Shown: in pieces, positions 18,989 to 34,584 of the stretch | Layout of the letters: every line of letters starts with the position of its first letter | Position numbering within the stretch: position 1 is the stretch's first letter | Origin: Eubacteriales bacterium | Lineage (GTDB): Bacteria; Bacillota; Clostridia; Lachnospirales; Lachnospiraceae | Length of the DNA: 36,138 nt | Assembly (NCBI GenBank): GCA_030531555.1 | Contig: JAUNNI010000025.1 | Span: 1-36,138, forward strand | Direction of reading: 5' to 3' | Notes under the pieces: generated by a model | Databases searched by the model: none | What the model saw: only the letters and a program-made list of their open reading frames with translations | What the model was told of the DNA's origin: nothing | Translations under genes and position numbers: made by a program

Positions 18989-19939
18989 CTAATTCTCTTT
19001 TTTATCACTACGAGCACATTCTCCTTCGGTGCCTCGTAAGATTCCAAGTCCATGGCCCAAGCTTGGAAGAATGAATTCCAATGCTTCTTTCACCGCTTTT
19101 GGGCTACCAGGAAGATTGATGATTAAAGTCTGCTTTCGGATTCCTGAAACCGCACGACTAAGCATGGCACGAGGTGTGATTGATAAAGAATAATATAAAA
19201 TCGCATTGGCAATTCCAGGCGCCATACGATCACATACTTCTGTTGTTGCTTCCGGAGTGATATCTCTTGGGGAAAAACCAGTTCCACCCGTTGTGAAGAT
19301 AACATTGACCTGACGCTGGTCTGCCAGACGGATCAAAGTATTCTTCAGTGGAAGTTTCTCATCCGGAAGGAGGATGGTTTCTTTTACATCATATCCTGCT
19401 TCTGTGATCATTTCCACGATTTTTGGTCCGCTCTTATCTTCTCGTTCTCCTGCATGTCCTTTATCACTTAAAGTGATGACCGCAGCAGTAAATGGACGAT
19501 CTGCCGGAGGAAGGATCACTTCCATCTCATCCCCCACCTTGATAGGACCTTCGCAGATTACTTCTGCAAAAACGCCTTCTCTAGGCATGATGCAGTCTCC
19601 AACTTTTTTATAAATTTCGCAATGACTATGACATTCTTTTCCGATTTGAGTCATTTCCAAAAGAACATCTCCAACTTTAAAACGAGTTCCTACTGGAAGA
19701 GAACGGAAATCAATATCTTCCACGATAATATTTTCACCAAAAGCACCTAAGGCTACGTCAGCACCTCTTGCACGAAATTCTTCTATTTTATTATAAGATA
19801 ACAAACTGACCTGTCTATGCCATTTTCCTCCGTGGGCATCATTTTCTAAGCCCCAGTCTTTGATAAGATTAACCTCTGGGATCTCATGTTTTTGGGTTCC
19901 TCTTTTTTCACTGATACATATTCCAACAATTTTACCCAT
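18989..19939 (-). CDS. MOSC domain-MogA fusion protein
   Basis: A 316-residue fusion. Residues 1-150 are a MOSC domain (WGLENDAHGGKWHRQVSLLS, GAFGENIIVEDIDF, and IGKECHSHCEIYKK with paired Cys/His), a fold that binds molybdopterin and can carry sulfur. Residues 155-316 are a MogA/MoaB domain (VITLSDKGHAGEREDKSGP, TTGGTGFSPRDITPEAT, LPGSPKAV), which adenylates molybdopterin before Mo insertion by MoeA. Both halves are intact in one frame. The start at 19939 has GGAGG and follows the moaA stop by one base; an earlier ATG at 19951 overlaps moaA. Confidence 0.92.
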   Translation of the reverse strand: MGKIVGICISEKRGTQKHEIPEVNLIKDWGLENDAHGGKWHRQVSLLSYNKIEEFRARGADVALGAFGENIIVEDIDFRSLPVGTRFKVGDVLLEMTQIGKECHSHCEIYKKVGDCIMPREGVFAEVICEGPIKVGDEMEVILPPADRPFTAAVITLSDKGHAGEREDKSGPKIVEMITEAGYDVKETILLPDEKLPLKNTLIRLADQRQVNVIFTTGGTGFSPRDITPEATTEVCDRMAPGIANAILYYSLSITPRAMLSRAVSGIRKQTLIINLPGSPKAVKEALEFILPSLGHGLGILRGTEGECARSDKKEN

Positions 19940-19940
19940 T

Positions 19941-20906
19941 TTATCCTCCAATTTGTACCATTCTTTTTATTTCCGTAATTTCTGCAATTTCTTCAAAACA
20001 GTGCATTTTGGGTTTATCAAGAATCGCTTTTTCAAGCAGATTTTTTACCAAAGAAAGATCTCCCTTCCTTACAGCATCTTTGACAGAAACCTTTGTATCA
20101 AAGCAAAGGCATGGTTTTATATCCCCTGTGGCCGTCATGCGAATTCGGTTACAGCTGCTACAGAATTTTCCATGGATTGCACTGATAAAGCCGACACTTC
20201 CCAAAAATCCAGGAATCTGATAATAGATGGCTGGTCCATTTCCATGAATACATTCATCTCTTACCATATCCGGATAGATTTCCTGTAAGGCCTCTATTAA
20301 AGTGATGTTTGACACCATTTCCTGTGTTTTTCCATCTCCGATTGGCATCAGCTCAATAAATCGAACATCCAATGGCATATCCTTTGCCAAAGCAAGAAGG
20401 TCCAGCCATTCATCGTCATTGCTGCCCTTTTGTAAAACACAATTGATTTTTACACGAAAACCTTCTTCCACTGCTGCATATATTCCATCAAGCACTTGAT
20501 CCAGCTGATCAAATCTTGTGATGGCCTGAAATCTCTCTCTTTTTAAGGTGTCAAGACTAATATTAATTCCATCAAGCTTCGCTTCCTTTAGCTGTGGAAG
20601 GCATTCTTTCAGACGAATTCCATTGGTAGTAAGAGTCACCTGCTCCACCCCCGGAAGCTGTTTAATCTGGCGAATCAAATCCGTACATCCTCTCCGAACC
20701 AGAGGCTCACCACCCGTAATTTTGAATTTTACGATCCCCAACTCTACCACCTGCCTGCAGACATCTAATATTTCCTCATAGCGAAGAATCTCATCCATAG
20801 GAAGCAAATTGATATCATCCGGCATGCAATACCGGCAGCGCAGATTACATCGGTCTGTGATGGAAATTCGCATATAATCTATTTTTCTTTGAAAATGATC
20901 ATACAT
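19941..20906 (-). CDS. moaA: GTP 3',8-cyclase (radical SAM)
   Basis: A 321-residue MoaA that starts Moco synthesis from GTP. The radical SAM cluster motif is C20-x3-C24-x2-C27 (ITDRCNLRCRYCMPD). The C-terminal substrate cluster is FCSSCNRIRMTATGDIKPC, and the protein ends in the conserved double glycine (QIGG), which is needed for activity. GGEPLVRRGC is the SAM-binding GGE motif. It follows moeA by 21 bases, with AAGGAG upstream. Confidence 0.96.
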   Translation of the reverse strand: MYDHFQRKIDYMRISITDRCNLRCRYCMPDDINLLPMDEILRYEEILDVCRQVVELGIVKFKITGGEPLVRRGCTDLIRQIKQLPGVEQVTLTTNGIRLKECLPQLKEAKLDGINISLDTLKRERFQAITRFDQLDQVLDGIYAAVEEGFRVKINCVLQKGSNDDEWLDLLALAKDMPLDVRFIELMPIGDGKTQEMVSNITLIEALQEIYPDMVRDECIHGNGPAIYYQIPGFLGSVGFISAIHGKFCSSCNRIRMTATGDIKPCLCFDTKVSVKDAVRKGDLSLVKNLLEKAILDKPKMHCFEEIAEITEIKRMVQIGG

Positions 20907-23570: not shown

Positions 23571-24500
23571 TTATCGTCTCTCTACACGAAGTAACATAAT
23601 GAGGAACTGAAGAAGTACCCAGCCAATGATCATTGTTGTAAGATAAATCTGAATACCCTGAAGCTGTGTTAAGTAACCAGCAAGCTTTTCATTTCCAGCA
23701 TTTGTTAAGAATCCTGCCATTTTACCTGTTGCAACACATCCGATGGCCATAGGGAAGGTTACACCTGCATATCCAGGAACCCAGTTGAAAGCAAAGAATT
23801 TAGGTAATTTGAAAATAATGAATGCAAGTGAGCATAAAACACATACATAGAGGAAGTACAATAAAGTTGCATTTTTATTTTCAACTACGTTAATATAACT
23901 TACAACACAGAGGGAACATGGTGCTAAAAGAACAGCCATTGTATGATATACAGGCGCTTTTACTTCCACTGTGAATAAACGGTAAAGCATGAATGGTAAA
24001 ATTACAAGATAGATCACGATACCATAATATGTTACAGCATTTAAAACTACCTTTGGAAGGAATCCGGCGCCAGCTACACAGCTAACCATGATTCCGTTAT
24101 AGGTTACATACCAGGATGGTACAAATGTATTGATATCTCTCTTGGAGATTACATTACGGAAGGTAAAGATGCAAATATGAGTTGCATGACATGCAACAGC
24201 AATTAAAAGAATGATTTTACCTACACCTGGAATAAACTCATTATAGTAGCTTCCAAGAATCATAGTCATCATGAAAAGTGCTGCATATAAGCTACAAGGT
24301 ACCACATTGGAGTACTCTGCTTTACATTTATCAAATGCTGTCACAATTTTTACTAAATAGCATAAAAGAACGATTGTTGCTACCCACATTGTGATGTGTC
24401 TTACCCATGCAAAGTTTAACCCACCATAAACATTTGCAAGAGTCAAAGCACCAACGAAAGTTGGTATCACTGGAACTGGCATATTTTTAATTCTTTCCAT
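23571..24500 (-). CDS. TDT-family (TehA/SLAC1-like) anion channel or exporter
   Basis: A 309-residue membrane protein with about ten hydrophobic helices. The pattern NMPVPVIPTFVGALTLANVY, then repeated short helix pairs and TFPMAIGCVATG resembles the tellurite-resistance/dicarboxylate transporter (TDT) fold of TehA, SLAC1 and the yeast sulfite pump SSU1. These move small anions such as nitrate, chloride, sulfite or malate. Position at the end of the nitrate/sirohaem reductase cluster points to nitrate, nitrite or sulfite movement. The start at 24500 has AAGGAG; the longer frame from 24533 overlaps the previous gene. There is no obvious terminator after it. Confidence 0.75.
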   Translation of the reverse strand: MERIKNMPVPVIPTFVGALTLANVYGGLNFAWVRHITMWVATIVLLCYLVKIVTAFDKCKAEYSNVVPCSLYAALFMMTMILGSYYNEFIPGVGKIILLIAVACHATHICIFTFRNVISKRDINTFVPSWYVTYNGIMVSCVAGAGFLPKVVLNAVTYYGIVIYLVILPFMLYRLFTVEVKAPVYHTMAVLLAPCSLCVVSYINVVENKNATLLYFLYVCVLCSLAFIIFKLPKFFAFNWVPGYAGVTFPMAIGCVATGKMAGFLTNAGNEKLAGYLTQLQGIQIYLTTMIIGWVLLQFLIMLLRVERR

Positions 24501-24532
24501 TATATTTTTCTCCTTGAATTTTTCTTCTTCCA

Positions 24533-25768
24533 TTAATCTTCATATAAGAACTCAAAATTGTCGTCCATATGGAAGAAATCAGAATAGTCGATGTCAAATA
24601 GAGGTTTTTTGATTCTGGATACGTCAATCTTACGACGGATCATCTGAGTCAATACACCACTGTAGGATAAATCACCCTGAAGGATGGCACCTGTGATCAC
24701 ACCATCTTTATGAACTACTTTCTTGTAGATACCACGTTTTTCGTCAATAAAGATTTCTTCTTTATGAGTATCATCGTAGCGGTTTGCCTGTCCTAATGAC
24801 ATACTTGCAAGACCAAGGAAGTTCATAGTGGATTTGGATGCAAAGAAATCATCCATGGATTTCTTGATACCGCTCATATTATAAGCAGCTACCATACCTT
24901 CTTTTACAGCAACCGGCCAGATTGGAGCACGACCGGAAACATCACCGGCACCAAATACATTTTCAATATTGGTACGGCCCTGCTCGTCAAATACAAGACC
25001 AAAACGGTCACATTCAATCTTGGAACCTTCTAAGAATTCCACAGTAGCACGTACACCGGCACAGTTAATAACCAGATCGGTTGGAATTTCAGTACCATCG
25101 TTAAGGATAACTTTGTAGCAATTTCCTTCGTCATCAAGAACAAATTCTTTTGCTCCCATGTTGTAATACTGTTTTACCCCTTTTTCTGCAAACATTTTGC
25201 CATATACGCCTGCGGAGTAATCATCAAGCTGAATACCAAGCATATAAGGAGCCATATCTGCAAGTGTGATATTTTTATTATATTTTACAAGTCCGGCAAC
25301 CACGTCGATACCAACGAGACCAGCACCCATAACGAAGATATTTTCTGCTTGATCCAGTCTTTCTTCGATGAATTCTACGTCAGGGAAGTTACGGAAACCT
25401 GTAATATTTTTTCCTTCACGTAATCCAGGGATTGGGAAGAAATTCGGATGAGAACCGGTACAGATACATAATTTATCGTAAGTAACTTCCTCACCGTTAT
25501 CTAAAACTACTACGTTACGATCCGTGTCTACGGATGTTACTTTTACACCCTTCATCCAGTCAAGGTTCATTCTTTCTTCGAAGTTAGGGCCTACGAAGTT
25601 AAGACCTTCCAGATCTCTTTCCCCTTTTAAATGATGATATAAAATACAACGGGAATAGATTGCAGTATCTTCAGAGATCATTACGATCTGAGCTTCTGGA
25701 TTTAATTCTCTTAATTTGCGAACAACGTTTGTTCCTGCTGCACTAGCGCCAATAACTACAAATTTCAT
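24533..25768 (-). CDS. FAD/NAD(P)-dependent oxidoreductase (nitrate-reductase electron donor candidate)
   Basis: A 411-residue pyridine-nucleotide-disulfide-type flavoprotein. FAD is bound by KFVVIGASAAGTNVVRKL; the NAD-binding fold is VMGAGLVGIDVVAGLVKY; the second FAD contact is NVFGAGDVSGRAPIWP. C41 in YSRCILYHHLKG sits where CoA-disulfide reductases and NADH oxidases have their redox cysteine; NirB-type proteins have a related YSR segment. With the four-cluster ferredoxin upstream it probably passes NAD(P)H electrons to the molybdenum reductase. The start (25768) overlaps the ferredoxin stop in TAATG, with GGAGG upstream, so the two are coupled. The longer frame to 25822 is rejected. Confidence 0.85.
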   Translation of the reverse strand: MKFVVIGASAAGTNVVRKLRELNPEAQIVMISEDTAIYSRCILYHHLKGERDLEGLNFVGPNFEERMNLDWMKGVKVTSVDTDRNVVVLDNGEEVTYDKLCICTGSHPNFFPIPGLREGKNITGFRNFPDVEFIEERLDQAENIFVMGAGLVGIDVVAGLVKYNKNITLADMAPYMLGIQLDDYSAGVYGKMFAEKGVKQYYNMGAKEFVLDDEGNCYKVILNDGTEIPTDLVINCAGVRATVEFLEGSKIECDRFGLVFDEQGRTNIENVFGAGDVSGRAPIWPVAVKEGMVAAYNMSGIKKSMDDFFASKSTMNFLGLASMSLGQANRYDDTHKEEIFIDEKRGIYKKVVHKDGVITGAILQGDLSYSGVLTQMIRRKIDVSRIKKPLFDIDYSDFFHMDDNFEFLYED

Positions 25769-26190
25769 TATTTTGTCACCTCCACCAGTGTAATCGCATG
25801 CATAGGACATTTTTCTACGCACATTGGATTTCCGCTTCCGTCTTCGCTTCTATGAACACACATGTCACATTTCATAACTTCATAGTTATAGATTGCATCT
25901 GGTTTTAATACACCATAAGGACAGGCCATAACGCACATGAAGCAATGTGCACAATGTTCTTTATCATAAGTAACATAACCAGTCTTTTCGTCTTTTCTCA
26001 TGGCACCTGTCATACATGTGATAGCACATTCTGGAAGGTCACAATGACGACAGAAAATAGGAGCTGGTCTTGTTTCAGAGTCAATGACAACTCGGTTTCT
26101 TGCATCATGAGTATCATGGGAGATACAGCAAGAAGTAACACACATTAAACAACCAATACAGCGGCTGCGGTCAATTTTAATTCTATACAT
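25768..26190 (-). CDS. Four-cluster [4Fe-4S] ferredoxin-type subunit
   Basis: A 140-residue HycB/NrfC-like iron-sulfur subunit with four cysteine groups: C11-x2-C14-x2-C17-x3-C21, C47-x2-C50-x4-C55-x3-C59, CAHCFMCVMACP, and a CDMC...CVEKCP group, sufficient for four [4Fe-4S] clusters. It would pass electrons between the flavoprotein and the catalytic molybdenum subunit, whose genes flank it. It matches the NarC-type protein known beside clostridial narB. AAAGGAGG precedes the ATG, 7 bases after the previous stop. Confidence 0.9.
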   Translation of the reverse strand: MYRIKIDRSRCIGCLMCVTSCCISHDTHDARNRVVIDSETRPAPIFCRHCDLPECAITCMTGAMRKDEKTGYVTYDKEHCAHCFMCVMACPYGVLKPDAIYNYEVMKCDMCVHRSEDGSGNPMCVEKCPMHAITLVEVTK

Positions 26191-26196
26191 AACGAC

Positions 26197-28278
26197 TTAT
26201 GCCTCCTTTGGTCTGATATTTACAACTGCAGATTTGTAAGATGGCTCTTTGGAATATGGATCATATACGGAAGGAGTCAGCTTATTACATTCTACATAGT
26301 GAATTGGTGCATAGATTTCATCTTCCTGAACATCTGGAGTGATACGTACTGCAAAATCAGCACTCTGACCATTACAGGAATTGATGGTAATCCAGTCTTC
26401 ATGCTTAAGACCAAATTTCTCAGCAACAACCGGATGAATGAAGCAGTATGCATGATGAAGGCTAACACCTTCTACAAACTGTACTTCACGGGTACGGGAC
26501 TGTGTATGCCACTGGCCTACGGTTCCACGTCCTGTATTAAAGATATATGGGAATTCTTCTGTCTGAGGCATTGGATTTTCTGGAACCGGCTCAAACTGGA
26601 AGATTGCCTTGCCGTCTGGATGCCAGAATTTTCCATCTGCATAAAGTCGACGTTCGTCTTCTTCTAATACGTCGCCTTCTTTAAATGGCCACTGAATACC
26701 ATGGGAACCTTCAAGACCACGGAAGGAAACACCTGTGATATCAAATGGACGGTTCTTAGAACATGCTTTCATAAGGTTGAAGCAGTCCTCTGGAGTTTTC
26801 CAGTTGTCAATAATATCCTGGAAGCCCATGGCTTTGGCGATGCCATACATGATCTGATAGTCATTCTTTTCGTCTTCATCTGGAACGATTGCAGGAACGC
26901 AACGGCAGATACGACGTTCTAAGTTGATATAAGAACCTTCTTTTTTGATACCCGGAACTGCTGGTAAGAATACATCGTAGTCTTCACAGCTTTCGATATC
27001 ATCATAGATGTCCTGTACCACATAGAATTCAAGTTTTTCAATGGCACTCTTGAATGTCTCGTTATTTGTCCAGGAATGTCTTGGGTTGGTGCACATGATC
27101 CATAAAGCTTTGATTTCGCCAGCATTGATTCCTTCAATGATCTGGTTGTAAGTCTTTGTAGGACCTTTTGCGAGAATTTCTTCATCACAACCGAAGATGC
27201 CGGCAATTTTCTTTCTTGCATCTGGGTTTGCAAAGTCATGTCCATAAAGGGAGGCCTGGTTAGAGAATAAACGGGATCCCATGGCATTACACTGACCTGT
27301 GATAGAGTTTGCACCGGTACCTGGTTTTCCATAGTTACCAAGAAGTAACTGTAAGTTGATAATAGACTGTGCAGCACGAACTGCATTGTGGGACTGATTG
27401 ATACCCATGGTCCACCACATGGATACTCTCTCACCATTTTTGATGAGCTCAATCAATTCCATAATCTGTTCCATTGGAATGTTTGTAACTTCAGAAACCT
27501 TATCCAATGGGAAGTCTTTTACGAATTCTTTGTATTCTTCGAATTTATTGGTGCTTGCAGCGATGAATTCATGATCAATAAGATCATTTTCGATGAAATA
27601 GTTAGCAAGACCATAGAATAAAGTGGAGTCTGTTTTTGTTTTGATTGCGTAATGATAATCCGCGTTCTTTGCAGTTTCAGAACGTCTAGGATCAATAACG
27701 ATTAATTTTTTATTTGGATTTCTCTTGATACGGTCCCAAACGATTGGATGAGCAACAACAGGGTTTGCTCCTACTAAAATAATAGTGTCAGAAATATCTA
27801 GATCTTTTAAAGTATATCCTGGTGCATCGAAACCGTAGCTCTGTTTGTGCGCAACTACAGCAGATGCCATACAAAGACGTGTGTTACCGTCTACGTTTGT
27901 ATGCATGTGGTCACGTAAAATATGACCATTGATTGCAAATTCTTCTAATGTAAGCTGACCAGTAGAAATACCAGCGATTGCTTCGTATCCATATTTTTCC
28001 TGAATTTCTTTAAAACGTTTTGCAATATAATCAAATGTGTAATCCCAGCCTGGGTAGTGGTAGGTACCATCTTCTTTTCTTACACGTGGAGTATGTGGTT
28101 TATCAACTACTGTCTGCTGTTTGTCAAGGGAAATACCTTTGATACAGCAGAAACCATCATTTACAGGATATCCTGGTGTTGGTTTTACGCTGACAATACG
28201 ATTCGCTTCTTCATCCACATAAAAATCAAGATTACAGTCGATGGCACAATAGTTACAAACTGATTGTACTTTTTTCAT
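26197..28278 (-). CDS. narB: Nitrate reductase-like molybdopterin oxidoreductase, catalytic subunit
   Basis: A 693-residue bis-MGD enzyme. The N-terminal [4Fe-4S] site is C8-x2-C11-x3-C15 and C45-x-K-G. The Mo ligand is C136 in NTRLCMASAV, the CMxSA signature of Nap/Nas nitrate reductases rather than the Cys/Sec-His of formate dehydrogenases. Other shared stretches are GANPVVAHPIVWDRI, GKPGTGANSITGQCNAMG and the C-terminal FNTGRGTVGQWHTQSRT. There is no Tat signal, so it is cytoplasmic like NasA/NarB. With the ferredoxin and flavoprotein it resembles the clostridial narB-narC set. Nitrate is the best substrate guess; another oxyanion is possible. GGGG precedes the start. Confidence 0.85.
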   Translation of the reverse strand: MKKVQSVCNYCAIDCNLDFYVDEEANRIVSVKPTPGYPVNDGFCCIKGISLDKQQTVVDKPHTPRVRKEDGTYHYPGWDYTFDYIAKRFKEIQEKYGYEAIAGISTGQLTLEEFAINGHILRDHMHTNVDGNTRLCMASAVVAHKQSYGFDAPGYTLKDLDISDTIILVGANPVVAHPIVWDRIKRNPNKKLIVIDPRRSETAKNADYHYAIKTKTDSTLFYGLANYFIENDLIDHEFIAASTNKFEEYKEFVKDFPLDKVSEVTNIPMEQIMELIELIKNGERVSMWWTMGINQSHNAVRAAQSIINLQLLLGNYGKPGTGANSITGQCNAMGSRLFSNQASLYGHDFANPDARKKIAGIFGCDEEILAKGPTKTYNQIIEGINAGEIKALWIMCTNPRHSWTNNETFKSAIEKLEFYVVQDIYDDIESCEDYDVFLPAVPGIKKEGSYINLERRICRCVPAIVPDEDEKNDYQIMYGIAKAMGFQDIIDNWKTPEDCFNLMKACSKNRPFDITGVSFRGLEGSHGIQWPFKEGDVLEEDERRLYADGKFWHPDGKAIFQFEPVPENPMPQTEEFPYIFNTGRGTVGQWHTQSRTREVQFVEGVSLHHAYCFIHPVVAEKFGLKHEDWITINSCNGQSADFAVRITPDVQEDEIYAPIHYVECNKLTPSVYDPYSKEPSYKSAVVNIRPKEA

Positions 28279-28343: not shown

Positions 28344-29327
28344 CTATGAGTTCTGATCTGCAAAATGGATTCCACCCCAGTAGAGACGTTTCTTAACGAT
28401 TGTTTCTGGAAGAAGTTCCACATCTTTTAATGCGTATTCTGCAAATGTTTCAAAACCTGCACGGTCAATGATGTAACCGATGTGCTCTTTTCTTCCTGGA
28501 GCTGCAGGATCGATGTATTTTTCACAGAATTCATAGGTGTTTTTGATGATCTTAACGATGTTATCTTCATCAGCCCAGATTAACCAATCCTGTCCAAGAC
28601 GAGGATTTTTCTTACCGGTACGACCCATGATGGAAAGTTTGTAATATTTCTTTTCACTTCTTGTCCATGCACGAGTAGGACATTTTGTAACACAAACACC
28701 ACAACCGATACATTTTTCTGTATTACGTACGATCTTATAGTTTTCAAAGCTTAACGCACCAACGGATAACTGGTTACATCCTTTGATACATGCTTTACAG
28801 CTAACGCAGCGAGTTGCATCGTACTGAGGCATTGTCTGACCAATGATACCAAAGTCATGCATTCTTGCCTTTGCACAGTCGTTGGAACATCCTGTACAAG
28901 CTACTTTGAAATGAAGGTCATTTGGGAAGATTTCTTTATCAATTCTTCTTGCAAGATTAGAAGTGTTGTAGTTGGCAAATGGACAGACATTGTTTCCGAT
29001 ACATGCCTGGATATTACGTGTTCCGGATGCTGGATAACCACTTTCTTTTTCTTCCTGATTTGTGCCTACGATATCGATGATCGGCTGAAGTTTTTTGTTG
29101 ATTGCTTCCATATCTTCCAGACGGATTCCTTCGATTTCGAAGCCCTGTCTTGTTGTGATATGAACCATACCATTTCCATATTCCTGCGCGATATCCTGAA
29201 CCATGCCAAGTACTCTTGCATCACAATAACCACCAGGTACACGGATACGGGAAGCACCGATTCCACGCTGTTTGGATACACGGAAGGCATTCTTTTTCAG
29301 TTTTTTGGTATTAATATCAAGACTCAT
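28344..29327 (-). CDS. asrC: Siroheme sulfite (or nitrite) reductase subunit C, AsrC-like
   Basis: A 327-residue catalytic subunit. N-terminal ferrite-reductase-like half-domain residues include TTRQGFEI. The siroheme-[4Fe-4S] ligands are C109-x5-C115 (ACIGNNVCPF) and C147-x3-C151 (TGCSNDC). An inserted 2[4Fe-4S] ferredoxin domain has C174/177/180/184 and C206/209/212/216. The layout and length are those of AsrC, the dissimilatory-like anaerobic sulfite reductase of Salmonella and clostridia, which makes sulfide with NADH. Because the next genes encode a nitrate reductase, six-electron reduction of nitrite to ammonium is an equally sensible role here. GGAGG precedes the start, 12 bases after asrB. 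Confidence 0.9.
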   Translation of the reverse strand: MSLDINTKKLKKNAFRVSKQRGIGASRIRVPGGYCDARVLGMVQDIAQEYGNGMVHITTRQGFEIEGIRLEDMEAINKKLQPIIDIVGTNQEEKESGYPASGTRNIQACIGNNVCPFANYNTSNLARRIDKEIFPNDLHFKVACTGCSNDCAKARMHDFGIIGQTMPQYDATRCVSCKACIKGCNQLSVGALSFENYKIVRNTEKCIGCGVCVTKCPTRAWTRSEKKYYKLSIMGRTGKKNPRLGQDWLIWADEDNIVKIIKNTYEFCEKYIDPAAPGRKEHIGYIIDRAGFETFAEYALKDVELLPETIVKKRLYWGGIHFADQNS

Positions 29328-29339
29328 TTTATTCCCTCC

Positions 29340-30131
29340 TTAATCCATTAATTCTTTGGCTTCTGTATAATTGAATACAGGTCCATCTAAGCAAACATAT
29401 TTTTCATTTACTTTACAGTGACCACATTTACCAAGACCACAGCACATCTTACGTTCATAGGATGTCCAGATCTGTTCATCTTTCATACCAAGCTTTTTGA
29501 TTTCCATGATTGTAAATTTGATCATGATTGGAGGTCCAACACAGATAAATACTGCATTTTCCGGATTTTCGAATTTGAGGTCTGGAATGTATTTGGTTAC
29601 CATTCCAACTGGTCCTTCGTAATCTTCTGGAGCACGGTCTAAAGTTTTGATTACATTGATCTTATCTTTCCAATCTTCAAAATCAGCTTTGAAAAGAACA
29701 TCATCAAGGCTCTTGAAACCAGCGATCAATGTTGTGCTAACAGAATCCTGTGGATTTGCAGCAAAATGCTGAACAACACCACGAACTGGAGAAACACCTG
29801 TACCACCAGCGATGATAACAATCTCTTTGCCCTTATAGTTGTTAACATCGAAACCATTTCCGTATGGTCCACGGATGAAGAGTTTATCGCCTACATAGTT
29901 TTCGAACACTTCATTGGTAACTTTACCAACACGGCGAATGGTAAAATCAACGGTTCCTTCTCCAATACCACTTACGGAAATAGGAGCTTCCCCGAATTTT
30001 GGGATGGAAATTTCGAAGAACTGCCCTGGTTTAACGTCGCCTTCGAATTCCATGCGGAATGTATATTCTAAATCAGTATGTTTAATAACTTCTTTGATAG
30101 TAGAAAGCTGAGGAATATATAAGTTAGACAT
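29340..30131 (-). CDS. asrB: Anaerobic sulfite reductase subunit B (FAD/NAD, [2Fe-2S])
   Basis: A 263-residue flavoprotein of the ferredoxin-NADP reductase superfamily. The FAD-binding part covers residues 1-100 (IRGPYGNGFD), the nucleotide-binding part has IIAGGTGVSPVRGV, and a C-terminal [2Fe-2S] site is C231-x4-C236-x2-C239-x7-C247, as in dihydroorotate dehydrogenase B electron-transfer subunits and AsrB. It takes electrons from NADH for subunits A and C. It starts one base after the asrA stop with AAGGAGG. Confidence 0.93.
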   Translation of the reverse strand: MSNLYIPQLSTIKEVIKHTDLEYTFRMEFEGDVKPGQFFEISIPKFGEAPISVSGIGEGTVDFTIRRVGKVTNEVFENYVGDKLFIRGPYGNGFDVNNYKGKEIVIIAGGTGVSPVRGVVQHFAANPQDSVSTTLIAGFKSLDDVLFKADFEDWKDKINVIKTLDRAPEDYEGPVGMVTKYIPDLKFENPENAVFICVGPPIMIKFTIMEIKKLGMKDEQIWTSYERKMCCGLGKCGHCKVNEKYVCLDGPVFNYTEAKELMD

Positions 30132-30132
30132 A

Positions 30133-31134
30133 TTACTGTTCCTCCTTTGCTAAACGATTTACAAGTGCAGAATAGGAAATGTATTCTGGACAGATATCAT
30201 CACAACGGCCACAGCCTACACACATAGGATAGCCGAATCTCTTTTCATAATCGTAGATCTTATGCATAACTTTAAAACGCATATTATCTGCTTTTGTTTT
30301 ACGGAATTTAATTCCACCTGCAATCTGGTCATAATCTTCAATCTGGCAGGAAGCCCATACTCTTCTACGTTCTCCAACCTTTGGATTATCATGATAGAAA
30401 ATATCCTGCATAGTGAAGCATGTACATGTAGGACATGCGAAATTACAACGACCACAAGTGATGCAACGTTCTCCGTATTCTTTCCAGATCTCATTGGTGA
30501 AGGATTCGTTGGAAAGTTTTTTAGGAAGTGTTACTTTCTCATAGTTTTCTGTCACAAAAGCAGGAGTTACCTCTACTTCTGTTGTATAACGGCCATAAGT
30601 GATTGTATTTTTAAAAGATTCATCTTTTACATCAATGGAAACGGTATCACCATTTACCGCAACATAAATCGCATATTCATCGGTCTGATTTGTTCCCATG
30701 CTTACACAGAAACCGCTCTTACAGCTTTCAGAACAACCAATTAATGCAAATTTAGCTTTTTCACGAATACGTTTGTAATAGAAATCTTCAAATTTATTGT
30801 CAAGATAAATCTGATCTAATCTTTTTAATGCGTGGAAATCACATGCGCGCATAAAGATTAACAGTTCCTTTTCTGGTCCCTTAGGAACCGTTGTTTCATC
30901 CTCTGTGAAATAAAACAGAGTTTCGTTAATATGAAGTAATGTTTCTTTGAAGGAATAATCAGACTTTTTGTCCCATACGATTTCATCCACAGATTTTACT
31001 TTGTCGTAACGAACGATATCTGTATCAGAAAAACATCCTTCTCCGGTTTTCAGAACTGGTGCCCAAATGTCATACTGTTCGGAAAGATCAGCAAAAAGAG
31101 CATTCGCATCAGCTTTTGATAATTGATAACCCAT
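30133..31134 (-). CDS. asrA: Anaerobic sulfite reductase subunit A (ferredoxin-like)
   Basis: A 333-residue AsrA-type subunit. Two [4Fe-4S] motifs lie in the C-terminal part: C224-x2-C227-x2-C230-x3-C234 (CITCGRCNFACP) and C305-x2-C308-x2-C311-x3-C315 (CVGCGRCDDICP). The N-terminal region resembles the hydrogenase/sulfur reductase subunit family. It relays electrons from AsrB to AsrC. It heads the reductase operon; AAAGGAG lies 6 bases before the ATG, and a Crp-type operator lies about 100 bases upstream. Confidence 0.92.
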   Translation of the reverse strand: MGYQLSKADANALFADLSEQYDIWAPVLKTGEGCFSDTDIVRYDKVKSVDEIVWDKKSDYSFKETLLHINETLFYFTEDETTVPKGPEKELLIFMRACDFHALKRLDQIYLDNKFEDFYYKRIREKAKFALIGCSESCKSGFCVSMGTNQTDEYAIYVAVNGDTVSIDVKDESFKNTITYGRYTTEVEVTPAFVTENYEKVTLPKKLSNESFTNEIWKEYGERCITCGRCNFACPTCTCFTMQDIFYHDNPKVGERRRVWASCQIEDYDQIAGGIKFRKTKADNMRFKVMHKIYDYEKRFGYPMCVGCGRCDDICPEYISYSALVNRLAKEEQ

Positions 31135-31204
31135 AGTAACTCCTTTCTCCTTAAAGCGTTAGTTTTATAGATAGACCTAATAAGAGATCTTATATTTTGT
31201 ATTC

Positions 31205-31251
31205 ATTTTATCAATATATAAAAAAAAATTCTGTGATAGGTATCACAGAAT
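31205..31251 (-). promoter_or_regulatory. asrA promoter with Crp/Fnr-type operator at -41.5
   Basis: A perfect palindrome at 31228-31251, ATTCTGTGATA-GG-TATCACAGAAT, contains TGTGA-N6-TCACA. Downstream on the minus strand is an extended -10, TGATAAAAT (-10 box 31210-31205). If the start is 31198 (an A), the palindrome centre (31239.5) is exactly -41.5, the class II activator position. There is no good -35, as expected for an activator-dependent promoter. The adjacent gene encodes a Crp-family protein with matching recognition residues. Confidence 0.7.
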
Positions 31252-31256
31252 CTTTT
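31220..31256 (-). terminator. Terminator of the mobB-crp gene (same DNA as the asrA operator)
   Basis: On the minus strand the palindrome extends to a stem of about 16 bp, followed by a run of nine T. It lies 73 bases after the fusion gene's stop. The same inverted repeat can therefore work as an RNA terminator and a DNA operator. Confidence 0.75.
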
Positions 31257-31328: not shown

Positions 31329-32519
31329 TTAAAAAATCTTTTTTTTATGGCTAATCTTATAAAGAGCTGCAAGACGATCCGGATCGAGGATGGTAATTCT
31401 TTTTCGATTGATCGTAATCAAACCCTGATCCTGGAACACTCTGCAGATTCTTGAGGTGGTCTCTCTTGGACATCCCAACATATCGGAAAGGAAAGTGATG
31501 GACAGATTAAAATTAATCTCCACTCCATTTTCTTTTTCTTCTCCAAAATCCCTCGCCAGCTTCCAAAGCTTGGCAGCCAGCTTTCTTTCCATATAGATGC
31601 TTCCGTTGGTATTCTTTAACTGATGACCCATACGCCACATTTTCCATTCCTGCATGTTAAGAACCGCTGTGGTAAGATCAAAGTCTTTTCCCATCCATTT
31701 GATAAATGCCTTTTTGGATATGACAAAAATCTTACTTTTTTCAATGGTTTCACAATAGACCGATGGAGCATGGTTGGTCATCACATGGTCATTTAGTAAA
31801 ATACCTTTTCCAAAAATAAAGATGACTTTTCGATCACCGGAAAGGGTAAGGTTATATATGGCTGATTTGCCAGTCAGCTGAATGAAAACAATCTCAGACA
31901 TCTCACGGGCAGACAAAAGAATCGTACCTTTTTTAAATTCTTCCACTGACCCATCTTTCCAAAGTCCTTCCAGCGTGGAAGGATTTAAATCCTGAAGGAA
32001 TGGAACCTTGTAGAGCATATTTTTACTCTTGCCAACATACCTCTTTTTAAGATAGTGAACGATAAACTCTGCCACACTGGCAGCATCGTTAAGATCAAAC
32101 TGTTCTTTGGCTCCTACAACTGGAACATCACTGACCACTGCGATACAATCCTCTGCAGGAATCGGAAGATCTTTACCGGTTGCTTGTCGATGAAGCATAA
32201 TTTTTGCCCAATTTCCGGTTTTAAATCCTTCCGTAAGAATCAGATCCACATCCGTAATCTTATCAAAAACTTCCTCAACGGCACTTGGACGATTTTCCAT
32301 AATCACCGATTTGGAAGCGGATACCAAACCAGTGACCGAAGCCCCTGCCTTGGTGATGCGGTAACTGTCTTTTCCTTCTTTATCAATCTCAAATTCATGG
32401 GCATCATGCTTAACCACAGCGACACGAAGCCCATTCTTTTTTAATTCTGGTATTAATTTTTCAAGAAATGTTGTTTTTCCAGTACCTGAGTATGCAATGA
32501 CTGAAATAATAGGAATCAT
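31329..32519 (-). CDS. MobB-Crp/Fnr fusion: MGD-synthesis GTPase joined to a transcription regulator
   Basis: One uninterrupted 396-residue frame. Residues 1-165 are MobB: P-loop YSGTGKTTFLEKL (K15), VVKHDAHEFEID, and LILTEGFKTGNWAKI. Residues 168-396 are a complete Crp/Fnr regulator: a cupin-like sensor (about 170-285), long dimerisation helix and a winged helix with GCPRETTSRICRVFQDQGLI, in which R352, E353 and R357 match the DNA-contacting R180, E181 and R185 of E. coli Crp. The sensor lacks the Arg of cAMP-binding cassettes and the N-terminal cysteines of Fnr. M168 could in principle be a separate start but has no ribosome site. ATG overlaps the mobA stop (ATGA). It probably links Mo-bis-MGD supply to expression of the reductases. 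Confidence 0.88.
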   Translation of the reverse strand: MIPIISVIAYSGTGKTTFLEKLIPELKKNGLRVAVVKHDAHEFEIDKEGKDSYRITKAGASVTGLVSASKSVIMENRPSAVEEVFDKITDVDLILTEGFKTGNWAKIMLHRQATGKDLPIPAEDCIAVVSDVPVVGAKEQFDLNDAASVAEFIVHYLKKRYVGKSKNMLYKVPFLQDLNPSTLEGLWKDGSVEEFKKGTILLSAREMSEIVFIQLTGKSAIYNLTLSGDRKVIFIFGKGILLNDHVMTNHAPSVYCETIEKSKIFVISKKAFIKWMGKDFDLTTAVLNMQEWKMWRMGHQLKNTNGSIYMERKLAAKLWKLARDFGEEKENGVEINFNLSITFLSDMLGCPRETTSRICRVFQDQGLITINRKRITILDPDRLAALYKISHKKKIF

Positions 32520-33100
32520 TGTACCATCTCCTTGTAATCCTCTGGTGTATTTACATTACGAAATGCTTTTGTATCATTAAAACATTTTTTCACAGAAAGA
32601 AAAACGGCATGATCCGAATCAAAAATAGATCGAACCCTGTAATTTCCTTCTTTTAGATATTTTTCAATTTTGGGAAGCGTGGATCGATGATAAAGGCCAC
32701 AAAGAACATGAAGTCTCCCATCTTCTTCTTTTGGAATCACAGCAGTGATGTCATCCGAGCAAAATTGCATCATAGTTTCCAGTGTCTCTTTCTTTACAAA
32801 TGGTGTATCGCAGGCGACTATAAAAACCCATGGATTTTTTGCATTTTTTAAGGAACTATGAATCCCTGCCAAAGGACCACATCCTGGAAAATCATCCACA
32901 ATATGTGGCAGTACCACATCCGGAAAATCACCAGCTTCTTTCACAGAAAAAAGAACTTCACCAGCCTCAGAAAAACTCTCTGCCAGATAATCTACAAATC
33001 TTTTTTCACCAATCTGCAAAAGTGCTTTCGGTTGTCCCATCCTGGAGCTTTTCCCTCCACTTAAGATCACCACACTGATGTTAGAAATATCCATGTTCAT
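32516..33100 (-). CDS. mobA: Molybdenum cofactor guanylyltransferase
   Basis: A 194-residue MobA that adds GMP to molybdopterin to form MGD for enzymes such as the nitrate reductase. The nucleotide motif is VVILSGGKSSRMGQPKALL, the metal site VACDTPFV, and the C-terminal NVNTPEDYKEM is typical of the family. The start is uncertain: ATG at 33100 gives a 4-base gap from the preceding stop; 33115 and 33094 are alternatives and none has a strong ribosome site. Translation is probably coupled to the upstream gene and, through ATGA, to mobB-crp. Confidence 0.93.
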   Translation of the reverse strand: MNMDISNISVVILSGGKSSRMGQPKALLQIGEKRFVDYLAESFSEAGEVLFSVKEAGDFPDVVLPHIVDDFPGCGPLAGIHSSLKNAKNPWVFIVACDTPFVKKETLETMMQFCSDDITAVIPKEEDGRLHVLCGLYHRSTLPKIEKYLKEGNYRVRSIFDSDHAVFLSVKKCFNDTKAFRNVNTPEDYKEMVQ

Positions 33101-33104
33101 TCTT

Positions 33105-33617
33105 TTATTGATCATTCATCTCTTCTTCTCGTTTTTTCATATTTTTCATGCGCTGTCCAATCATGTTGAAAGCCTGTTTGGAAGCTTTGCTTTCCTGACT
33201 TTCATCCAGGAATTTTTTCGCTTTTCCAACTGTATCAATACCAAGAAGATCAAACATATCAATAATCAATGTTTTATGAAGCTGTTCTTTGCGATCCTCT
33301 TCCTTTTCTGCAAAAGCAAAACGCAGGCGGTATCTGCGATCATAAGCAATAATATTGGTTTCCATCACTTCTGGATGGAGCTTGATTTTATCTAATAATT
33401 TATTCTGCTGCTCACTGCCGTCACCCATTGGCTCATTGACATCAAAGCCAGGCCCCACGTTGGCAACATAATAAAACTGATTCTCTTTTTTTACCAGTTC
33501 ACCTTTTAATGGACGTACAATCAAGCCGCGATTATTAAAATACAATGCTTCAATGGCAGCTTGTTTCTGTTCATTTTCCAGGCACCAGTTATATAATTCC
33601 TCTGAAGAATATTTCAT
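33105..33617 (-). CDS. Conserved-looking protein of unknown function in the mob operon
   Basis: A 170-residue soluble protein that I do not recognise. It looks like a mixed alpha/beta N-terminal part (residues 1-120, with YYVANVGPGFDVNEPMGDG in the middle) and a charged C-terminal helix rich in Lys, Glu and Met (residues 130-170). It has one cysteine, no signal peptide and no membrane segment. It lies 21 bases after the transposase-fold gene and 4 bases before mobA, so it is in the same transcript. A role in MGD metabolism or in the regulation of this locus is possible from position only. Confidence 0.65.
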   Translation of the reverse strand: MKYSSEELYNWCLENEQKQAAIEALYFNNRGLIVRPLKGELVKKENQFYYVANVGPGFDVNEPMGDGSEQQNKLLDKIKLHPEVMETNIIAYDRRYRLRFAFAEKEEDRKEQLHKTLIIDMFDLLGIDTVGKAKKFLDESQESKASKQAFNMIGQRMKNMKKREEEMNDQ

Positions 33618-33638: not shown

Positions 33639-34445
33639 TTATTTTTCGAAATCCGAATTCTCCTCCGACTGGGATAATATGATCTCAAGATTATATTTTA
33701 AAATATAAACCGTCAAATAGTCAATCCCATCTTGAAGATCCGTAAAGACATAACCGTTCATTCGACGTTTTAAAGTAGAGAAAAAAGTACTGACAGGCAT
33801 AATTCCACCATGACTTCCCTTCTCTGTCATGGACATGGTGACCTTAAAATCATTACATATTTTCTTATATTCCTTGGTCTTAAAAATCTCATTTTGACTA
33901 CTGTGTATTAAAAAATGCTGACATGGGGCAAAAGATGCAATGTGATCAATGGCTTCCTGAATCAGCTCTGCATTCTTTTCGGCAGAGAAGGATACGGCCT
34001 GAATACTCCGATCATAAAGATCAATGAGCGTACACATATATAAGGTTCCTTCATCCCTTGTGTCGTAGTTTCCGATGCCAATACAATACTTTTTATAAGG
34101 TCCTTTTGCAGAAAAATCATACTGGATCAGGTCAGTGATCTCTGGTGCCGCTTTCACACCTTCACGCTTTCGAACCCAAGGGTTTCGCGTAGACATCATG
34201 GCATAGTGATCTACTAAAATTGGAATTGGCAATTTCAGTTTGCGACAAATCTTGATGATATCCTTATTCTCACAGCCCGATGCCAGCTGATCCTCATCAA
34301 TATCCCAGAATGGGAAGTTAAGGATTTCTCTTCGATAGTCCTCAATAAATGGAAAAAACATACGATAGTTGTCAGTCAGTTCTTTCAATCTGTCCAAAAA
34401 CTCTATATCATTTGATAGTTCATTCAAATACCAGTTACGAATCAT
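33639..34445 (-). CDS. Transposase-fold (IS3 integrase-core-like) protein lacking the DDE triad
   Basis: A 268-residue intact frame whose second half aligns without gaps to the integrase core of IS3/IS150 OrfB transposases: KKYCIGIGNYD for the first-Asp strand, GTLYMCTLIDLYDRSIQ, then LIHSSQNEIFKTKEY, and SMTEKGSHGG...FFSTLKRRM. Each catalytic acid is replaced: first Asp to G123, second Asp to S183, Glu to S219. There are no stops or frameshifts and no inverted repeats or target duplication. It is therefore unlikely to move DNA and is perhaps domesticated for DNA or protein binding. The start at 34445 has AAAAGG 9 bases upstream; 34478 is an alternative. It lies 21 bases before the next gene of the mob operon. 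Confidence 0.75.
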   Translation of the reverse strand: MIRNWYLNELSNDIEFLDRLKELTDNYRMFFPFIEDYRREILNFPFWDIDEDQLASGCENKDIIKICRKLKLPIPILVDHYAMMSTRNPWVRKREGVKAAPEITDLIQYDFSAKGPYKKYCIGIGNYDTRDEGTLYMCTLIDLYDRSIQAVSFSAEKNAELIQEAIDHIASFAPCQHFLIHSSQNEIFKTKEYKKICNDFKVTMSMTEKGSHGGIMPVSTFFSTLKRRMNGYVFTDLQDGIDYLTVYILKYNLEIILSQSEENSDFEK

Positions 34446-34584
34446 CTTCTTCATCCTTTTATATGCAAGCCCAAACATTATGGTCGTAATTTATCTATTT
34501 TCATTATAATATAATTTCTTTTGAATGAATAATAAAAAATGTATATTTTTGTATAGTAATTCATTAAAAAAAATGATATATTAT

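Follow-up and report, generated by a model that had tools for sequence, protein, structure and literature searches.

A complete MobB and a complete Crp-type transcription regulator are joined in a single protein of a Lachnospiraceae bacterium. The fusion gene, mobB::crp, occupies positions 31329–32519 on the minus strand of the window, i.e., the whole 36,138-nucleotide stretch of DNA analyzed here, and encodes 396 aa in one unbroken frame. The fusion is genuine, and we read MobB::Crp as a new domain architecture. Here we show, from sequence, the fusion, its conservation in three genomes, its intact motifs, and the geometry of a predicted operator and promoter nearby. The explanation that we regard as quite probable is that the protein is bifunctional, being both a cofactor protein and a dedicated class II activator of asrABC-nas, with sensing carried out in the Crp half. 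That is, two complete operon partners would have been fused. The MobB half, the cell's only recognizable MobB, would supply the adaptor/GTPase step of MGD synthesis together with MobA. The Crp-type half would bind the sequence TGTGA-N6-TCACA at a site positioned 41.5 bp upstream in the asrABC-nas promoter and, once bound, would switch on the reductases, among them one whose cofactor is made with the help of MobB.

The mobB::crp fusion gene

The MobB half comprises residues 1–165 (32025–32519, minus strand), of which 1–161 make up the complete MobB, and contains a P-loop, SGTGKTT, along with the GKDSY and TEGFK motifs. The P-loop lysine K15 and TEGFK, picked out in an earlier note on this DNA, are both present. 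The Pfam MobB match spans residues 4–131 and profile positions 1–133 of 133 (E 3.7e-42), and the PF03205 score is 143.8 bits versus a gathering score of 26.6. The Crp-type half, residues 167–396 (31332–32021, minus strand), consists of a beta-roll sensor, a dimer helix, and a winged HTH. Here, cNMP_binding matches residues 193–277 (E 5.1e-7) and HTH_Crp_2 matches residues 313–386 (E 3.2e-16), both over the Pfam gathering score. The earlier note had read the frame as a complete MobB joined to a full Crp/Fnr regulator and had proposed a domain search of the 396-aa protein; that search, returning all three domains over their gathering scores, bears the reading out. In a Foldseek search with the fusion, the 50 rows listed were Crp/Fnr-type chains only; MobB appeared in a second look, and the MobB fold is recognized in the MobB half.

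The junction, residues 161–168 (32016–32039, minus strand), was placed by alignment with unfused orthologues. K166-N167 of the fusion align with the N-terminal KN of unfused regulators, such as those at loci L073 and L074 (MQGKN in L074), so that the join keeps nearly all of both proteins. The linker between the halves is only about 7 residues. A structure model was built from an alignment (A3) in which both halves were aligned correctly; a mixed alignment (A2) of 51 fused, MobB-only, and Crp-only proteins was discarded, as it laid MobB rows on the Crp half.

The same full-length fusion is found in two more genomes of the genus, G010 (397 aa) and G016 (391 aa), in both of which the three Pfam domains (MobB, cNMP_binding, and HTH_Crp_2) are present. 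Identity to the window fusion is 54–55%, being 55% over 1–389 for G010 and 55% over 1–395 for G016, where the match overruns the TAA that ends the 391-aa protein. Invariant in the three fusions are K15, T16, GKDS, T96, E97, G98, and K100 (TEG-x-K), as well as R352, E353, and S356. These proteins bear directly on whether the fusion might be an assembly or frameshift artefact, or might yield two proteins through an internal start at M168, outcomes that the earlier note had itself raised. The window genome is a draft of 165 contigs, and a weak Shine-Dalgarno-like AAGAG lies 7 bases 5′ of the M168 codon, so that some room for these readings exists. Against them, full-length fusions recur in G010 and G016, also draft genomes, which rules out the frameshift; further, the ATG at M168 occurs in the window protein only, the other two fusions reading KNPL there, without a start codon. 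We consider either outcome highly improbable.

Could the MobB half have ceased to be a partner in cofactor synthesis, serving only as a sensor or dimerization domain? As an adaptor that some bacteria can do without, MobB leaves some room for this reading. The invariance of K15, GKDS, and TEG-x-K in all three fusions speaks against it. So does the identity of the MobB halves, which is 62–66% among the three fusions and 64% between that of the window protein and the MobB part of a MobA-MobB protein in G007. In addition, exactly one MobB above the Pfam cut-off, that of the fusion, was found in each of the fused genomes, G000 (96% complete), G010 (84%), and G016 (85%), leaving no second MobB in the genome by that measure. 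Loss of the synthetic role thus appears very unlikely, and the fusion would retain MobB activity.

The asrABC-nas operon and its predicted operator

The genes named in this paragraph all lie on the minus strand. Upstream is mobA (32516–33115), the stop codon of which overlaps the fusion's ATG by 4 bases, preceded by a 170-aa ORF (33105–33617) for which neither Pfam nor NCBIfam gave a match at E values up to 0.001. Downstream, asrA (30133–31134; TIGR02910), asrB (29340–30131; TIGR02911), and asrC (28344–29327; TIGR02912), which encodes a sulfite/nitrite reductase subunit with NIR_SIR and 4Fe-4S domains, all score over cut-off. There follow a nasC-like gene for a Nas/Fdh-type molybdopterin reductase (26197–28278), a 4Fe-4S electron-transfer protein (25768–26190), a flavin oxidoreductase of the pyridine-nucleotide-disulphide type (24533–25822), and a SLAC1-type anion channel (23571–24533). 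The nitrate reductase that the earlier note had placed a few genes away is this Nas/Fdh-type molybdoenzyme; its scores do not reach the NCBIfam cut-offs, and it is separated from the fusion by asrABC.

Several other features of the neighborhood were seen. Just upstream of the mob cluster is an IS3-like transposase ORF (33639–34478) with an rve domain, NCBIfam IS3 being below cut-off. Farther off, a 320-aa ORF (18989–19951) has, by eye, a MOSC-like part and a MoaB/Mog-like part, and in the segment 7813–16578, ORFs that by eye resemble a xanthine-dehydrogenase-type set are accompanied by selD- and SirA/YedF-like genes, which may make this a cluster for a selenium-dependent molybdenum hydroxylase.

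The recognition helix of the Crp half includes residues 352–357, RETTSR (31449–31466, minus strand), of which R352, E353, and S356 are found in 54 of 54 orthologues. In its treatment of site recognition, a published description of Crp-type regulators pairs residues R180 and E181 in the recognition helix with site positions G3 and A6, and gives TGTGA-N6-TCACA as the site of proteins having both residues, such as Desulfovibrio HcpR (PMC1274295). The window protein has both, as R352 (R180) and E353 (E181). The operator was therefore predicted to be TGTGA-N6-TCACA, and such a site was then found before asrA: a perfect TGTGATAGGTATCACA at 31232–31247, between the fusion and asrA, is the sole perfect match in the window. 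It is centered at −41.5 of the predicted asrA promoter, the −10 hexamer of which, TAAAAT, is at 31205–31210 (minus strand), with a predicted transcription start near 31198 on that strand. The genome holds seven perfect palindromes (one for a reversed-pattern control), and only the one at 31232–31247 has a −10 matching at least 5 of 6 positions at −41.5; the other six lack it. The link drawn in the earlier note between the fusion and the reductase stands in part, in that the predicted operator immediately precedes asrABC and the Nas-type reductase. The regulator thus probably controls, as predicted from these sites, an operon whose molybdoenzyme needs the cofactor.

The same arrangement recurs at the loci of orthologous regulators. 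The 54 loci compared are the best-scoring matches returned as loci, out of longer match lists, and are not all independent, L090 and L010 being near-copies. A perfect TGTGA palindrome is present in 18 of the 54, versus 0.10 expected, and operators with at most one mismatch are present in 24. At these 24 sites, the mean −10 match at −41.5 is 5.04 of 6, versus 3.21 for the next best offset, and the best −35 match is 1–4 of 6 in the 20 that were scored. Sites at the remaining loci are mostly CGTGA-N6-TCACG. With the motif widened to YGTGA-N6-TCACR after the data had been seen, a palindrome is found in 47/54 loci (0.23 in shuffles), and a palindrome with a −10 matching at least 4 of 6 exactly at −41.5 in 46/54 (0.00 in shuffles). 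Among control loci, containing other Crp or MobB genes, 2 of 28 have the palindrome. Seven of the 54 lack it, and L004 has a palindrome without a good −10. In the fused genomes, the predicted site precedes asrA (window) or nasC (G010 and G016), as it does in unfused genomes.

An operator centered at −41.5 is the arrangement of class II activators. Operators so placed are seen at the 46 loci, as judged from predicted promoters, none of the 20 operators scored for it has a good −35, and the Crp half is accordingly proposed, by sequence criteria, to bind DNA and activate transcription. The palindrome before asrA also lies inside a terminator-like hairpin with a T-tract (31223–31256, minus strand; 15 pairs), and termination could account for some of its conservation. 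The mobA-mobB::crp transcript may thus end at the very palindrome that is the predicted asrA operator.

Genes of the neighborhood suggest a regulon for the reduction of nitrate, nitrite, or sulfite and for the cofactors that this requires. Either asrA/asrB or nasC lies within the fetched stretch at 49 of the 54 orthologue loci (48 of 53, plus the window), and none of these at the other five; in G049, a formate/nitrite transporter gene sits between crp and asrABC. Two further palindromes do not fit the −41.5 geometry. In G095, a second perfect palindrome (L048:6756–6771) is at −40.5 toward moeA, the other side lacking a good −10; its position, between moeA-mobAB and genes for CbiK-HemC, SUMT-HemD, and HemB, hints that siroheme-type and molybdenum cofactor synthesis share the regulator. 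In G007, a perfect palindrome (L036:2080–2095) precedes asrA with spacings of −40.5 and −45.5, and no orthologous Crp was found in that genome. Even with the fusion set aside, a Crp group is defined that has a precise predicted operator and promoter geometry, and whose proposed regulon, for the reduction of nitrate, nitrite, and sulfite, could be tested in bacteria such as Clostridium tyrobutyricum.

Sensing and the origin of the fusion

At position 253, which we take to be that of the Arg contacting the cAMP phosphate, the window protein has Ser, and Arg occurs in none of the 54 orthologues (S in 40, T in 7, A in 4, V in 2, and G in 1). The earlier observation that the sensor lacks the cAMP-binding Arg thus holds for the whole group. 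The companion claim, that Fnr-type cysteines are missing, is right as to the N-terminal cluster, since the first 40 residues of the window Crp half have fewer than two Cys; it overlooked a Cys in the sensor domain, C256 (31752–31754, minus strand), kept in 52/54 orthologues. At least two Cys in the first 40 residues occur in 9 of the 54 rows, one of these having three. N243 is present in all 54.

Fifty-one of the orthologues are unfused. All 51 keep N243, 49 keep C256, and 43 keep the operator geometry, and they do so without a MobB domain; these regulators therefore do not need MobB. Sensing probably predates the fusion. We suggest that the Crp half senses the signal through its beta-roll, as its unfused orthologues would, and that N243 and C256 are candidates for the sensing residues. 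The idea in the earlier note that the signal comes from the MobB half is not favored by these counts.

Spelled out, that idea is a switch in which the GTP or molybdopterin state of the MobB half alters the DNA affinity of the Crp dimer, such that the supply of molybdenum cofactor or GTP is read into asr/nas transcription. BirA or NadR would be the models for such a switch. Both halves match proteins known as dimers, and their connection by only some 7 residues is in keeping with coupling. So is gene order: in the window, as in G010 and G016, mobA and mobB adjoin the target operon, in C. tyrobutyricum they share a gene run with it, and in G421 and G1062 an unfused crp comes immediately after mobB. 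The retention of N243, C256, and the operator geometry in regulators that have no MobB half argues the other way, and the model, with a pTM of 0.66, does not fix the domain arrangement. On balance we hold such gating to be unlikely. If true, expression of the molybdoenzyme operon would be limited to times at which the cell is able to make the enzyme's cofactor. In any case, MobB::Crp joins in nature a protein of cofactor maturation to the predicted activator of an operon that encodes a user of the same cofactor, and so makes a clean test system for asking whether molybdenum cofactor supply is sensed directly at a promoter.

The fusion is confined, in the genomes compared, to 3 of 24 genomes of the genus; in G012 the contig begins inside the Crp part, so that its fusion status is not readable. 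No fusion was seen outside the genus among samples of 397 genomes of the family, 392 of the order, 391 of the class, and 398 of the phylum, where the samples overlap, scoring was limited to four candidates per genome, and the phylum result holds among the best matches listed. Homologues are thus mostly separate but not always so, and constant separation was what the earlier note would have taken as a refutation. Phylum-wide, one match over both halves, in G1062, was rejected as a second fusion because the ORFs are separate (mobB 1495–1983, crp 2035–2715), with mobB directly before a crp of another Crp lineage. In G377 and G452, Crp lies in a long open frame, which we take to be an upstream extension of the frame and not a fusion. 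Separate mobB and crp genes in one gene run are found in G421, where the mobA-mobB stop overlaps the crp start and nasC follows, and in C. tyrobutyricum, with the order MFS transporter, nasC, moeA, mobB, mobA, crp, asrABC, as well as in G1062.

In a Crp tree of 62 rows, which include 8 Crp rows from outside the group as outgroup in addition to orthologues, the three fused halves group together as a single clade (support 100/98) that falls within the unfused orthologues. Left out of this tree were L018 and L020 (contig-edge fragments from G012 and G006), L091 (a duplicate of L010), and L028. The MobB tree places the three fused halves in one starred clade together with G007, G019, and G021, not as a group of their own (3 changes), and so does not resolve them. 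A single origin of the fusion is therefore supported by the Crp tree. The end branches of the fused Crp halves are 0.42–0.73, versus a median of 0.35, and a changed function of the fused half is possible.

These findings also fit another account, in which two neighboring genes became one frame without functional coupling, the halves working as before. The near-seamless join of two complete proteins, the single origin within one genus, and the other Mob fusions of that genus (MobA-MobB, LtrA-MobA, and MobA-X-MobB) agree with it, while the retention of a single frame through divergence to about 55% identity does not sit easily with neutrality. We give this account roughly an even chance. It overlaps with the bifunctional protein proposed above, for which coupling is not required, so the odds of the two are not to be added to one. 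As to the other Mob fusions, in G016 an LtrA-type membrane domain is in frame with MobA (L035:1816–3537, 574 aa), directly upstream of mobB::crp; in G019 (L040:1903–3498) and G021 (L041:405–2021), MobA and MobB are joined via a middle part of about 170 aa, which in G021 has no Pfam match.

Comparison with known systems

The earlier note did not know this architecture as a described regulator, and no description of a MobB-Crp fusion was found in the literature searched; nor did that literature yield a description of this Crp group as regulator of asr/nas. The window protein differs from MobB as known (PF03205; E. coli MobB, 1p9n and 1np6) in carrying a transcription regulator at its C-terminus. 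In the NCBIfam models of MobB fusions that were matched, MobB is joined with MobA, MoeA, an Fe-S domain, or an unknown domain, and one more model is named molybdopterin synthase. In the gene arrangement given in one report, mobB and arsR are separate genes (PMC7349173).

With the Crp/Fnr family (MtbCRP, GlxR, Fnr, and DNR), the Crp half has in common the beta-roll, the dimer helix, the winged HTH, the R-E-x-x-S-R helix, and the TGTGA-N6-TCACA operator. It differs in having neither the cAMP Arg nor the Fnr Cys cluster, in having N243 and C256, and in its N-terminal MobB. Also close are the HcpR proteins, nitrite/NO-linked Crp-type regulators of anaerobes, for which the account in PMC1274295 gives, in Desulfovibrio, the predicted operator wTGTGAnnnnnnTCACAw and a role connected with nitrogen oxides. 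The predicted operator is the same, whereas the neighbors of the fusion are asrABC, nas, and mob genes. E353, at helix position 181, is kept in 54/54 orthologues, unlike HcpR2, which as characterized there has a residue other than Glu (Pro, Ser, or Gln) at this position (PMC1274295); by this residue the group is set apart from HcpR2.

There is also a likeness in design to BirA and NadR. These are cofactor enzymes with a DNA-binding domain, and in them, as in MobB::Crp, a protein of a cofactor pathway shares one polypeptide with a regulator of related genes. The difference is that here a full Crp-type sensor would bind the DNA, the predicted targets are reductase genes, and control by a ligand of the enzyme half is putative.
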